Positions 59,169 to 64,000 of a DNA stretch of 64,000 bases are shown here, piece by piece (the stretch's first letter is position 1; every line of letters begins with the position of its first letter). The translations under genes were made by a program, and so were the position numbers. Below the pieces are notes generated by a model. That model was not told the origin of the DNA and did no database searches. It saw nothing but the letters and a program-made list of their open reading frames with translations. Origin of the DNA: Lysobacter sp. MMG2 (GTDB lineage Bacteria; Pseudomonadota; Gammaproteobacteria; Xanthomonadales; Xanthomonadaceae); the NCBI RefSeq assembly GCF_016735495.2, contig NZ_JAERQY020000001.1:868001-932000 (forward strand). Direction: 5' to 3'.

Positions 59169-60320
59169 TCAGCGCTTTTCGATCGGCACGTACGCGCGAT
59201 CTTCCGGCCCGACGTAGTTCGCGCTCGGACGGATGATCTTGCCGTCCTCGCGCTGCTCGATCACGTGCGCGCTCCAGCCGGTGGTGCGCGCGATGACGAA
59301 CAGCGGCGTGAACATCGGCGTCGGGATGCCCATCATGTGGTAGGCCGATGCGCTGTACCAGTCGAGGTTCGGGAACATCTTCTTGGTGTCCATCATCAGG
59401 TTTTCGATGCGCTCGGACACGTCGAACAGCGTCTGGTTGCCGCCGTCCGCGCACAGCTTGCGCGAGATCTCCTTGATGATCGGATTGCGCGGATCGCCGA
59501 TGGTGTACACCGGGTGGCCGAAGCCGATGATGATTTCCTTCTTCTCCATGCGCGCACGGATGTCCGCCTCGGCCTCATCGGCGGTGCCGTAGCGGCTGAT
59601 GATGTCCATCGCCACTTCGTTCGCGCCGCCGTGCTTGGGGCCGCGCAGCGCGCCGATGGCGCCGGTGATGCACGAATGCAGGTCCGAGCCGGTACCGGCG
59701 ATCACGCGCGCGGTGAAGGTGGACGCATTGAACTCGTGTTCGGCGTAAAGGATGAGCGACTTGTCCAGCGACAGCGCATGCAGCGCGCTCGGCGCTTCGC
59801 CGTGCAGCAGGTGCAGGAAGTGCGCGGCGACGGAATCATCGTCCGTCTCGACGTCGATGCGGCGGCCGTTGCGGGTGAAGTGCCACCAGTACAGCAGCAT
59901 CGAACCGAAGCTGGCGATGAGCTTGTCGGCGATGTCGCGGGCTTCGGAGGCCGGATGGCCTTCGCGCTCCGGCAGCACCGTGCCCAGCACCGAGCAACCG
60001 GTGCGCAGCACGTCCATCGGGTGCGCGTTGGCGGGCACCAGTTCCAGCGCTTCGGACACGATCGCCGGCAGGCCACGCAGGCGCTTGAGCTTGGCCTTGT
60101 AGGCCTTCAGTTGCGACGTCGTCGGCAGCGCGCCGTGCACGAGCAGGTGCGCGACTTCCTCGAACGTCGACTCGGTGGCCAGGTCGTGGATGTCGTAACC
60201 GCGGTAGTGCAGGTCGTTGCCGCTGCGGCCGACGGTGCACAGCGCGGTGTTGCCCGCGGCGGTACCGCTCAGGGCGACGGATTTCTTGGCCTTGGGCAGG
60301 ACCTGGTTGGTCTCGGTCAT
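59169..60320 (-). CDS. prpC: 2-Methylcitrate synthase
   Basis: PrpC condenses propionyl-CoA with oxaloacetate. The 383-residue citrate-synthase-fold enzyme has the short length of PrpC rather than GltA (427). Catalytic motifs are in place: [13 protein letters not shown] (His), [15 protein letters not shown] (His) and [18 protein letters not shown] (Asp). [10 protein letters not shown] and [18 protein letters not shown] are characteristic. The start at 60320 follows AGGAGG by 9 bases. prpB lies 246 bp upstream on the same strand, but the gap carries its own promoter-like elements. Confidence 0.93.
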
Positions 60321-60566: not shown

Positions 60567-61451
60567 TTACTTCTTGCTCGCGAACAGCGCGTCGAGCTTG
60601 TCCTCGAACGCGTGGTAGCCGATGCGATCGTACAGTTCCTCGCGGGTCTGCATGGTGTCCACCACGTTCTTCTGGTGGCCGTCGCGACGGATGGCGGTGT
60701 AGACATTTTCTGCCGCCTTGTTCATGGCGCGGAACGCCGACAGCGGGAACAGCTGGATCGCCACGCCCACCGAGGCCAATTCGTCGCGGGTGAACAACGG
60801 CGTCTTGCCGAACTCGGTGATGTTGGCCAGCACCGGCACCTTCACCGCGTCGACGAAACGCTGGTAGGTGGGCAGGTCGTAGGCGGCCTCGGCGAAGATG
60901 CCGTCGGCGCCGGCCTCCACGCAGGCGATGGCGCGCTCGATCGCCGCGTCCACGCCATCCACGGCGATGGCGTCGGTGCGGGCGATCAGGAAGAAGTCCG
61001 GATCGGTCTTCGCATCGGCGGCGGCCTTGACGCGGTCGACCATCTCGCCCTGCGACACGACCTCCTTGCCCGGACGATGGCCGCAGCGCTTGGCCCCGAC
61101 CTGATCCTCGATGTGACATGCGGCGGCGCCGGCCTTGATCAGCGACTTCACCGTGCGCTCGATGTTGAACGCGCTGGGCCCGAAGCCGGTGTCGATGTCC
61201 ACCAGCAGCGGCAGGTCGCATACGTCGGTGATGCGGCGCACGTCGATCAGCACGTCCTCCAGCCCGGAGATGCCCAGGTCCGGCAGGCCCAGCGAGCCGG
61301 CGGCGACGCCGCCGCCGGAGAGGTAGATCGCGCGGTAGCCGGCGCGCTGGGCCAGCAGCGCGTGGTTGGCGTTGATGGCACCGATGACCTGCAGGGGCTT
61401 TTCGGCGGCGAGGGCGGCGCGGAAACGGGCGCCTGCGGAAGCGGAACTCAT
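60567..61451 (-). CDS. prpB: 2-Methylisocitrate lyase
   Basis: PrpB cleaves 2-methylisocitrate to pyruvate and succinate. The 294-residue ICL/PEP-mutase barrel has the DIDTGFG metal motif, [20 protein letters not shown] (KRCGH active-site loop) and IARTDA, which match E. coli PrpB (296 residues). AGGAG precedes ATG by 7 bases. It is divergent from the HTH-citrate synthase fusion gene, with a 97-bp gap that contains a perfect inverted repeat. Confidence 0.95.
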
Positions 61452-61473
61452 GGGGGAACTCCTGTCTGCGACG

Positions 61474-61490
61474 GGTGCCAATCTGGCACC
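61474..61490. promoter_or_regulatory. Inverted repeat GGTGCCA-ATC-TGGCACC between prpB and the fusion gene
   Basis: A perfect 7-bp inverted repeat with 3-base centre, 23 bp before the prpB ATG. It would lie over the prpB transcript start, a position that suits a repressor. Next to it (61501-61529) are repeated TTGATC and CAATC units; related TGATC units occur before prpC (60394-60410). Confidence 0.55.
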
Positions 61491-61548
61491 ATCCCACTGG
61501 TTGATCAATCTTGATCGTTCCAATCAATCTGTCTGGCAATCTATCGCC

Positions 61549-62796
61549 ATGGACGACCTCCTCTCCGCCCGCGACACCTGCCGTCTGCTCGGCATCAGCC
61601 GGGCCACGCTGTACGCCTACGTCAGCCGCGGCCTGCTCGAATCGCGCCCCGGCCCCGACCACCGCAGCCGCCTGTACCTGCGCCAGGACGTGGAGCGGCT
61701 GGCGGAGCGCCAGCGCATCGGTCGCGGCGCAGCGCGCGGGGCGGCGCAGAGCCTGGATCGCGGTTTGCCCGTGCTGGAGACGCGGATCTCGCTGATCCGG
61801 CCGGACGGGCCGTACTACCGCGGCCGTTCGGCGATCGCGCAGGTGCGCGCCGGTGCCAGCCTGGAGGACACCGCGCGTCTCCTGTGGGACTGCGGCAGCG
61901 ACGACCCCTTCGCGATGGCGGTGCCGGGCTGGCCGGACACCGTGGCGAGCATCGCCGTCGACGCACGTCTGCCGCCGCTGGAACGCACGATGGCGGCGAT
62001 TCCGCTGCTGGCGCTGCAGGAGCGCCATTCGTTCAACTCGGCGCCGCAGGTGCGGCATCGCGTCGCGGCGACGCTGCTGCGTCAGAACGCCGCGCTGCTG
62101 GTCGCGCAACCGCCGTCGGCCGATCCCGTGCATCGCGTGCTGGCACGCGCGTGGCGGCCGGGCGATGCGGCATTCGAGGACCTCGTGCGCGCCGCACTGG
62201 TGCTGTGCGCCGACCACGAACTCAACGTCTCCGCCTTTGCCGCGCGCGTGGTCGCTTCGACCGGTGCGCATCTGCACGCGACGGTGTGCAGCGGATTGGC
62301 GGCCTTGTCGGGGCCGCGCCACGGCGGCGCCACGGCACGCGCCTACGCATTGATCGCCGAAGCGTCTCAGGCCGATTCGCCACGCGATGCGATCGCAGCG
62401 CGATGGCAGCGCGGCGACGACCTGCCCGGCTTCCGCCATGCGCTGTACCCGGACGGCGATCCACGCGCGGCGGAACTGCTGCAACGCCTGCGCGACGCGG
62501 CGCCGGATCCGGCGCAGCTGGATGCACTCAACGCGATGGTCGAAGCCACCGAGGAAATCAGCGGTCAGCACCCGAACATCGACTTCATGCTCGCCGCGAT
62601 CTGCCACGCCTATGCATTGCCGGCGACGCCGGCGCTGGTGATGTTCGCCGCCGGGCGCCTCGCCGGCTGGCTGGCGCATGCGCTGGAGCAGCAGGCGCAC
62701 GGTGGACTCATACGACCGCGTGCGCGCTATGCGGGTGTGCAACCGGGCGGAGTGGAAGAGCACGCCGCAGCGGTATCTCCTCACCATTCGCCCTGA
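61549..62796 (+). CDS. Helix-turn-helix / citrate synthase domain fusion
   Basis: A 415-residue protein. Residues 5-52 form a MerR/excisionase-type helix-turn-helix (LLSARDTCRLLGISRATLYA, then YVSRGLLESR and a YLRQDVERL helix). Residues 75-390 match citrate synthase, related to PrpC: ADHELNVSAFAARVVASTG, GPRHGGA with His258, GFRHALYPDGDPRA with His297, and HPNIDFML with Asp345, so the three catalytic residues are kept. It is divergent from prpB and followed by convergent prpE, so a role as a metabolite-sensing regulator of the prp genes is likely but unproven. The stop codon lies in a family C repeat. Confidence 0.85.
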   Translation: MDDLLSARDTCRLLGISRATLYAYVSRGLLESRPGPDHRSRLYLRQDVERLAERQRIGRGAARGAAQSLDRGLPVLETRISLIRPDGPYYRGRSAIAQVRAGASLEDTARLLWDCGSDDPFAMAVPGWPDTVASIAVDARLPPLERTMAAIPLLALQERHSFNSAPQVRHRVAATLLRQNAALLVAQPPSADPVHRVLARAWRPGDAAFEDLVRAALVLCADHELNVSAFAARVVASTGAHLHATVCSGLAALSGPRHGGATARAYALIAEASQADSPRDAIAARWQRGDDLPGFRHALYPDGDPRAAELLQRLRDAAPDPAQLDALNAMVEATEEISGQHPNIDFMLAAICHAYALPATPALVMFAAGRLAGWLAHALEQQAHGGLIRPRARYAGVQPGGVEEHAAAVSPHHSP

Positions 62797-62887: not shown

Positions 62888-64000
62888 TCAGCCTCCTGTA
62901 TCGGGGCCCCGCTCCAGCGCGCGCTTCACTTCCTCCAGCGCACCGGGGTCGTCGAGCGTGGACAGATCACCCGGATCGCGACTCTCCGCCAGCGCCTGCA
63001 ACGAACGCCGCAGCAGCTTGCCCGAGCGCGTCTTCGGCAACGCGTTGACCACGTACACGCGCGCCGGCTTCGCCACGCCACCGAGTTGTTCGACCACGCG
63101 CTGCTGCATCGCAGCGGCCGCATCGGCAGGCGATTCGTCGGGACGCTTGAGCGTGGCGAACACGACCGGTACCTGACCCTTGAGTTCGTCGTGCACGCCG
63201 ATGACGGCGGCCTCGGCGACACTGGGATGCGTGGAGCACGACTCCTCGATCTCGCGCGTGCCCAGGCGGTGACCGGCGACGTTGATGACATCGTCGGTGC
63301 GGCCGAGGATGAAGGTGTAGCCGTCCTCGTCGCGGATCGCCCAGTCCAGCGAGCTGTAGACGAGCTGCTTGAAGTGGCTGAAGTAGCTGGAAAGGAATCG
63401 CGCGTCGTCGTTCCACACCGTCGTCAGGCAGCCCGGCGGCAGCGGCGGCTCGATCACCAGCACACCCTTCTCGCCGGCCTTCACGTCCTCGCCGCTGTTG
63501 TCGTCGATCACGCGCAGCTTGTAGCCCGGCGTGGGCAATCCGGGCGAACCGAACTTCACCGGTTTCAGGTCCAACCCCGGCATCAGCGACAGCACCGGCC
63601 AGCCGGTTTCGGTCTGCCAGTAGTTGTCGATGATGGTCTTGCCGATGCCGTCGGTGATCCAGTGCGCGGTGGGTTCGTCCAGCGGTTCTCCGGCGAGGAA
63701 CAGCCACTGCAGCTTCGACAGGTCGTGCTTCTTCAGGAACGCGGGATCCTGTTTCTTCAACACACGGATGCCGGTGGGCGAGGAGAACATCGTGCGCACG
63801 CCGTACTGCTCGCAGATGCGCCACCACACGCCGGGGTCGGGATTCGTCGGTAGGCCCTCGTACAACACCGAGGTCGCGCCGGCGATCAGCGGCCCGTACA
63901 CGTTGTACGAATGCCCCACCGCCCAGCCGACATCGGACGTGGAGAACATCACCTGCCCCGCGCGCACGTCGTAGATCGACCACATCGACAACGCCAGCGC
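62888..64000 (-). CDS. prpE: Propionate--CoA ligase, C-terminal part
   Basis: PrpE makes propionyl-CoA from propionate, ATP and CoA. The last 370 residues lie in the window; the gene continues beyond base 64000. Signatures favour PrpE over acetyl-CoA synthetase: YGPLIAGATSVLYEGLPTNP, LAGEPLDEPTAHWITDGIG, DNYWQTETGWPVLSL and GRTDDVINVAGHRLGTREIE. The catalytic, acetylation-regulated Lys is in PKTRSGKLLRR near the C-terminus. It completes the activation step for prpC, prpB and prpD found in the window. Confidence 0.93.
   Translation of the reverse strand, partial: ALALSMWSIYDVRAGQVMFSTSDVGWAVGHSYNVYGPLIAGATSVLYEGLPTNPDPGVWWRICEQYGVRTMFSSPTGIRVLKKQDPAFLKKHDLSKLQWLFLAGEPLDEPTAHWITDGIGKTIIDNYWQTETGWPVLSLMPGLDLKPVKFGSPGLPTPGYKLRVIDDNSGEDVKAGEKGVLVIEPPLPPGCLTTVWNDDARFLSSYFSHFKQLVYSSLDWAIRDEDGYTFILGRTDDVINVAGHRLGTREIEESCSTHPSVAEAAVIGVHDELKGQVPVVFATLKRPDESPADAAAAMQQRVVEQLGGVAKPARVYVVNALPKTRSGKLLRRSLQALAESRDPGDLSTLDDPGALEEVKRALERGPDTGG

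Follow-up and report, generated by a model that had tools for sequence, protein, structure and literature searches.

Several described systems come close to the locus analysed here. In Xanthomonas and the enterics, prp genes are served by PrpR, a sigma-54/Fis-type regulator carrying a PrpR_N domain, and PMC9765439, with reference to an earlier survey, states that the Fis-family PrpR is used by all analysed Xanthomonadales. PrpR of X. citri represses prpB via the palindrome GTTGCAA-N2-TTGCAAC, according to the available part of the report (PMC12153269), and the GntR-type PrpR of Pseudomonas aeruginosa, a local prp regulator as proposed here for the fusion protein, is associated with the palindrome ATTGTCGACAAT in the accessible text on that protein (PMC9765439). 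The union of a DNA-binding domain with an enzyme-derived effector domain in a one-component regulator of a catabolic pathway is represented by BzdR (PMC3602430, available in part), a design that the fusion protein would share. Citrate synthase paralogues, too, have been linked to regulation: Caulobacter crescentus possesses CitA, CitB and CitC, a regulatory role is described for CitA, citB and citC bear consecutive locus tags, and CitC did not complement an E. coli gltA mutant (PMC7083601, available in part).

The window (the whole 64-kb stretch of Lysobacter DNA analysed) holds a gene that combines these themes, a helix-turn-helix (HTH) head on a citrate synthase body beside the methylcitrate genes. 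Judged by comparison with other genomes, the fusion, its linkage to prp genes, an accompanying operator-like site and a conserved pocket are all evident, and the gene is very probably a little-studied switch that would sense metabolism with an enzyme's own pocket. A literature search that did not take in Suvorova et al. (2012), a study of how propionate use is regulated, returned no description of an HTH-citrate synthase regulator, and the accessible parts of PMC2864759 and PMC6572756 contain nothing on the fusion.

Gene arrangement and domain structure

The fusion gene (61549-62796, forward strand, an open reading frame of 415 residues), which we propose to encode a one-component regulator, lies between prpB-prpC and prpE, as the sequence-only reading had placed it. 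The proposed targets are prpB (methylisocitrate lyase, 60567-61451, reverse strand) and, downstream of it, prpC (2-methylcitrate synthase, 59169-60320, reverse strand), both of which pass their NCBIfam equivalog cut-offs; prpB diverges from the fusion gene across a gap of exactly the 97 bp previously given (61452-61548). On the other side prpE (propionate-CoA ligase, 3' part, 62888-64000, reverse strand) converges on the fusion gene; it matches TIGR02316 over profile positions 264-628 with 674.3 bits, below the cut-off of 827.4, as would be expected where the end of the window cuts the gene. The remaining genes acnD and prpF (both above cut-off) stand together ca. 835 kb from prpBC on the same contig (L150, G000:C1:93872-98367), unlike the arrangement in many relatives, where there is one cluster. 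No match to the operator-like site described below was found at up to three mismatches in 14 kb around acnD-prpF; given this distance and the lack of a site, control by the proposed regulator would leave out part of the pathway in this genome, a point against the regulator reading. The window was earlier stated to hold neither a classical PrpR nor a GntR-type regulator, and for the two domains tested, PrpR_N and FCD, the same is true of the entire genome, from which both are absent.

The domain composition is borne out by Pfam, which places HTH_17 at residues 4-56 (61558-61716, forward strand; E 4.2e-9) and Citrate_synt at residues 71-391 (61759-62721, forward strand; E 4.3e-60), with the active-site columns of the latter intact. 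HTH_17 is a MerR/excisionase-like type, and a TLYAYVSRG stretch within it is almost invariant across the fusion family. The protein belongs clearly to PF00285 (204.1 bits against a gathering cut-off of 27) and stays below the cut-offs of MerR_1 (19.7 versus 21.6) and MerR (19.1 versus 28.2); two relatives (L094 and L115) exceed the former but not the latter. It is also far from the PrpC equivalog NF009006 (124.8 bits, cut-off 550) and below cut-off in all 21 named NCBIfam citrate synthase families listed, the best match of its citrate synthase part being NF009005 (150.7 bits, cut-off 332), to which mycobacterial CitA presumably belongs. The fusion protein has neither the PrpR_N and sigma-54 interaction domains of the sigma-54 PrpR nor the GntR HTH and FCD domain of the GntR-type prp regulators; it joins a DNA-binding domain to one derived from an enzyme, as BzdR does in principle. 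That it might be a second PrpC is ruled out by these family scores and by the tree described below.

Active site residues and structural model

In a computed alignment with GltA and PrpC of the same genome, the residues His258, His297 and Asp345, correctly reported as retained by the sequence-only reading, correspond to His276, His317 and Asp374 in the GltA reading frame (numbered from the first residue of the frame, whose start codon is unproven). To judge from this alignment, the fusion protein has the residues of an active citrate synthase, i.e. the His, His, Asp triad together with a set of His and Arg residues that we take, as we take the triad, to have its customary role, here the binding of oxaloacetate. 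Among 139 aligned fusion rows, many of which are close kin, Arg306, Arg389 and Arg391 occur in all, His223 and Arg370 in 138 each, His258 and Asp345 in 136 each, and His297 in 133; the putative oxaloacetate-binding residues are thus nearly invariant in the family. That 133 or more of these rows retain the catalytic residues would be expected of an enzyme as well, and in this respect counts against a regulator.

The exceptions comprise L278, L279 and L280, in which the operator-like site is absent and the entire triad is lost, and L265 and L288, which have lost His297 and have the site at one and two mismatches, respectively. An apparent tie between loss of the site and change of the active site (5/5 rows without the site versus 4/131 with it; Fisher p 3.5e-7, in a test that counts Asn226 as an inspected column, ignores kinship and was noticed post hoc) was set aside.

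An AlphaFold model of the single chain (mean pLDDT 84.9, pTM 0.78) consists of the HTH at ca. residues 4-57 followed by the citrate synthase body, with confidence below 50 at residues 61-75, 389-391 and 402-415; the low value at 389-391 counts against the regulator reading. Its best matches in the PDB are citrate and methylcitrate synthases, with TM scores normalised by target of at most 0.77 and a high rmsd in many rows.

A conserved site upstream of the fusion gene

The sequence-only reading had drawn attention to a perfect 17-bp inverted repeat in the gap. It exists (GGTGCCA-ATC-TGGCACC, 61474-61490, perfect 7-bp arms around a 3-base centre) and is the single match in the window, against none in 100 shuffles, but it is not kept as a repeat: perfect arms are found in none of 69 orthologous loci, which rules it out as the operator, and arms with one mismatch in only 4. 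The sole conserved half, AATCTGGCACC, recurs with at most one mismatch in 48 of the 69. On the reverse strand this half reads CAGATT (61485-61480), a possible weak -10 element of prpB 17 bp from TTGATC (61508-61503); a sigma-70 scan of the 97-bp gap found no promoter above its threshold.

What is conserved instead is an operator-like site, TTGATCAATCTTGAT-N7-ATCAA, at 61501-61527 (no strand assigned), made up of the half-sites TTGAT (61501-61505), TTGAT (61511-61515) and ATCAA (61523-61527). Scored as TCAATCTTGAT-N7-ATCAA (61505-61527 here) within 200 bp upstream of the fusion gene, it was found at up to two mismatches in all 79 loci with upstream DNA among the best 80 of at least 581 matches in a scan of species genomes, a list that leans to near kin. 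The match is exact in 74 of these 79, with one mismatch in 4 and two in 1, and 78 carry the 10-base core TCAATCTTGA unaltered. None of 395 single-base shuffles of these upstream stretches came below four mismatches, and in 16 related loci lacking the fusion none of the 41 measurable prp-gene upstream stretches (42 taken) came below five. In the 10 alphaproteobacterial loci of the list the core and the right half are kept and the first TTGAT half is not. With more distant homologues included (L040-L119 and L257-L316, a set containing the 79 loci and one further row without upstream DNA), the 136 rows with upstream DNA show 0, 1, 2, 3 and 4 mismatches in 101, 18, 6, 3 and 3 cases, respectively, and 6-9 mismatches in the remaining 5; these 5/136 homologues without the site count against the regulator reading.

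The association also appears when the pattern alone is searched, among 289 genomes belonging to the same class as genome G451, taken as Alphaproteobacteria. Ten of the 11 exact matches are at a fusion gene, nine of them within 100 bp by coordinates and the tenth (G884) preceding a fusion gene split between contigs; the eleventh (G922) has no fusion gene beside it. By coordinate count, 11 of 44 one-mismatch matches are at a fusion gene and 33 are elsewhere, and the site therefore also occurs elsewhere with one mismatch. The combined count at up to one mismatch (55 matches in 53/289 genomes versus 4 for the reversed control) was set aside as a clean statistic; because the reversed control differs in composition, and because of the 33 matches elsewhere, the exact matches are relied upon. 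The window contains no second copy of the site at up to two mismatches. Across the genome TTGATN7ATCAAYNT is matched exactly once (reversed control 0); on the basis of these exact matches, and with none at up to three mismatches around acnD-prpF, the idea of a wider regulon in this genome was dropped.

Distribution and neighbourhoods

Compared with the survey statement quoted above for the Xanthomonadales (PMC9765439, accessible portion), the picture in the present genome and its relatives is different: a full-length fusion occurs in 11 of 59 genomes and PrpR_N in 3, and no genome has both. Two of the PrpR_N genomes (L151 and L152) encode a PrpR_N and sigma-54 protein divergent from prpB, in the very slot held here by the fusion; in the third (G032) the PrpR_N gene is ca. 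3.6 kb from prpB. Six genomes of the same genus (L154-L159) have prpE-prpB-prpC in one direction, without fusion and without PrpR_N, which counts against the regulator reading; no regulator beside these genes was seen by eye in the reading-frame lists of 4 of the six. Their prpB is of another type, 66-67% identical to that of the window, and two prpB types are thus present within one genus. Wider samples contained the fusion in 4/369 genomes across the class (with 5 candidates scored in most genomes), 40/349 Pseudomonadota genomes and 32/289 genomes of the class of G451.

Of the best 80 of at least 581 matches, 70 (L040-L109) bear Lysobacterales or Nevskiales titles, except for one bin titled Candidatus Eremiobacteraeota, and in one of them (L087) the locus ends at the contig end upstream of the fusion gene. 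Among these best 80, a prp gene diverges from the fusion gene in all 69 non-alphaproteobacterial loci with upstream DNA, prpB in 67 and acnD in 2; prpB and the fusion gene are ca. 1.2 kb apart in L094 and L096. In the 10 alphaproteobacterial loci of the same list (L110-L119), with fusion homologues of ca. 45% identity, the divergent gene encodes a second citrate synthase, CS2. In CS2 (L110-L119 and L257-L298) a Glu occupies the column of Asp345, the catalytic Asp, in 17/17 rows examined.

Outside the Lysobacterales, the Pseudomonadota and G451-class samples held 64 distinct fusion genes, of which 58 were examined as 60 stretches, giving 59 matches with one gene split over two contigs. CS2 is faced by 39 of these, a PrpC-like gene by 1, and neither by 19. 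The neighbourhood survey thus divides the earlier expectation that the fusion tracks with prp genes: this holds in the Lysobacterales/Nevskiales lineage, but family-wide the homologues are mostly elsewhere, and since 39/59 face CS2, the situation that the sequence-only reading had named as speaking against it, homologues mostly away from prp genes, applies to the family and not to the lineage. Pfam identified three neighbours among the 19, as CoA-transferase family III (L260 and L302) and DUF2332 (L300), and genes resembling the former also face the fusion in L258 and L259; the CoA-transferase-like neighbours suggest that this class of regulator has further targets. Three annotated plasmid records show a citrate synthase neighbour in Agrobacterium fabrum and Chelatococcus and DUF2332 in Roseomonas; each carries the site, exact or with a single mismatch. 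Most of the plasmid-borne relatives listed go under the annotation 'citrate synthase family protein'. In plasmid At of A. fabrum C58 (NC_003064.2, L317), the annotated fusion start overlaps the neighbouring citrate synthase gene and covers the site; since it runs over a conserved site, the sequence suggests a true start ca. 105 bp downstream. A distant copy at ca. 6783-7948 of L160 (G051), split over two frames beside a citrate synthase-like stretch, with an operator-like core directly upstream and a transposase-like reading frame (by eye) a few kb away, has probably either begun to decay or been misassembled.

Origin of the fusion

A quick tree drawn from 80 citrate synthase domains (44 fusion rows, rooted on a single GltA row), which left out other citrate synthase families and in which the placement of three long rows is uncertain, puts the fusion rows in one clade (SH-aLRT 100) and CS2 in another (97). 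The two are sisters (95), with PrpC apart (100), and the stem of the fusion clade is long (1.75 changes per column). In this tree the sensor domain is closer to CS2 than to PrpC, and for this reason propionyl-CoA as a ligand is only a guess. The order of events that we infer is that an enzyme was duplicated, that one copy gained an HTH head and came to control the other, and that fusion and site would later have been re-targeted to prp genes in the Lysobacterales/Nevskiales lineage.

Proposed mechanism and alternatives

The fusion protein is in our judgement probably a local regulator of prpB(-prpC) and of its own gene, with the citrate synthase pocket as sensor and the conserved site as its binding site. 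Regulation of prpBC through an enzyme-fold sensor, as the sequence-only reading had proposed, is strongly supported: the gene neighbourhood speaks for it, an operator-like site accompanies the gene, and two relatives have PrpR in the position that the fusion occupies here; the operator would, however, be TTGATCAATCTTGAT-N7-ATCAA and not the 17-bp repeat, and the prp link belongs to one lineage, with CS2 or other genes in its place elsewhere. DNA binding, ligand, sign and dimeric state we infer as follows. A MerR/excisionase-like HTH would be joined to a duplicated citrate synthase; citrate synthases are usually dimers, and the two heads of a dimer could occupy the inverted half-sites TTGAT-N7-ATCAA (61511-61527), with the third half-site 10 bp upstream, between the divergent genes. 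The pocket, likely the sensor, would bind a di- or tricarboxylate, for example oxaloacetate or (2-methyl)citrate, alone or together with propionyl-CoA, and the open/closed movement of the citrate synthase body would alter DNA affinity. Repression of prpB and of the fusion gene itself, relieved by ligand, would be the favoured sign, given the distance of 21 bp between the end of the site and the start codon of the fusion gene.

The opposite sign, with a MerR-like activator distorting the promoter spacer, differs from this mechanism in that one respect and seems to us unlikely. The HTH of relatives does resemble MerR, the site may lie between weak divergent promoter elements, and PrpR of Salmonella activates (PMC12153269, accessible part), but the prp regulators of X. 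citri (same source) and P. aeruginosa (PMC9765439, accessible part) are reported as repressors. A possible though doubtful sub-case of the regulator reading, rather than its opposite, is a trigger enzyme, i.e. a protein that works as citrate or methylcitrate synthase and binds the operator as well, its turnover state (oxaloacetate plus acyl-CoA) setting transcription. Intact columns in the alignment with GltA, and a triad retained across the family beyond the needs of a pure binding pocket, argue for it; L265 and L288, which keep the site yet lost His297, the long stem of the fusion clade, which suggests a changed function, and a first part of the enzyme domain that is shorter in the alignment than that of PrpC, argue against.

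It is improbable that the conserved block serves as a common promoter, or is recognised by another factor, and is not bound by the fusion: both -35 regions might fall within it (TTGATC, from sequence) and its one-mismatch pattern is also found away from fusion genes, but the sigma-70 scan is negative at its threshold, the tested prp promoters without fusion lack the block, its palindrome fits a dimer, and it accompanies the fusion gene beside neighbours as varied as prpB, acnD, CS2, CoA-transferase and DUF2332. A spare methylcitrate synthase beside the prp genes, with a non-regulatory HTH, would account for the complete active site and agree with the annotation of the plasmid relatives; this is very improbable, since the HTH stretch and the DNA site persist all the way from Lysobacter to Rhizobium, a span over which whole-protein identity falls to ca. 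45%, prpC already adjoins the locus, and the fusion clade is not near PrpC.

On the preferred reading, that of an enzyme-fold regulator, the annotation of the plasmid relatives lists as enzymes what is probably a family of transcription factors. With considerable reserve, one may picture a widespread, unrecognised class of proteobacterial regulators in which a duplicate of citrate synthase with a DNA-binding head and its own operator first policed its twin, was later re-targeted, operator included, to the methylcitrate operon in the Lysobacterales, and is still catalytic, so that flux through one active site is read directly as transcription. If the ligand is confirmed, the protein could offer a propionate- or oxaloacetate-responsive switch.

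Comparison with known systems

The sigma-54/Fis PrpR shares with the fusion the slot divergent from prpB and, presumably, the target; it differs in having sigma-54 interaction and PrpR_N domains, and the X. citri PrpR palindrome, in the accessible part of that report (PMC12153269), differs from the fusion-linked site. The GntR-type PrpR of P. aeruginosa is distinguished by its FCD sensor, a domain missing from the present genome, and by a different palindrome (PMC9765439, accessible portion). Among citrate synthases, mycobacterial CitA (PDB 6wgy, 8gm9) is one of the close structural matches, unlike the fusion in that its chains of 373-380 residues align over the enzyme part only. For CitA of C. 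crescentus, the accessible text (PMC7083601) mentions no DNA-binding domain, unlike the fusion; by analogy, our guess is that CitC of that organism is an HTH fusion and CitB its CS2 neighbour. BzdR differs in its fold, a shikimate-kinase-like sensor, and, in the available part of its description (PMC3602430), in that loss of enzymatic activity was essential, whereas the catalytic residues of the fusion are kept in most members, in an example of enzyme-to-regulator evolution in which enzyme sibling, regulator and operator are all still visible.
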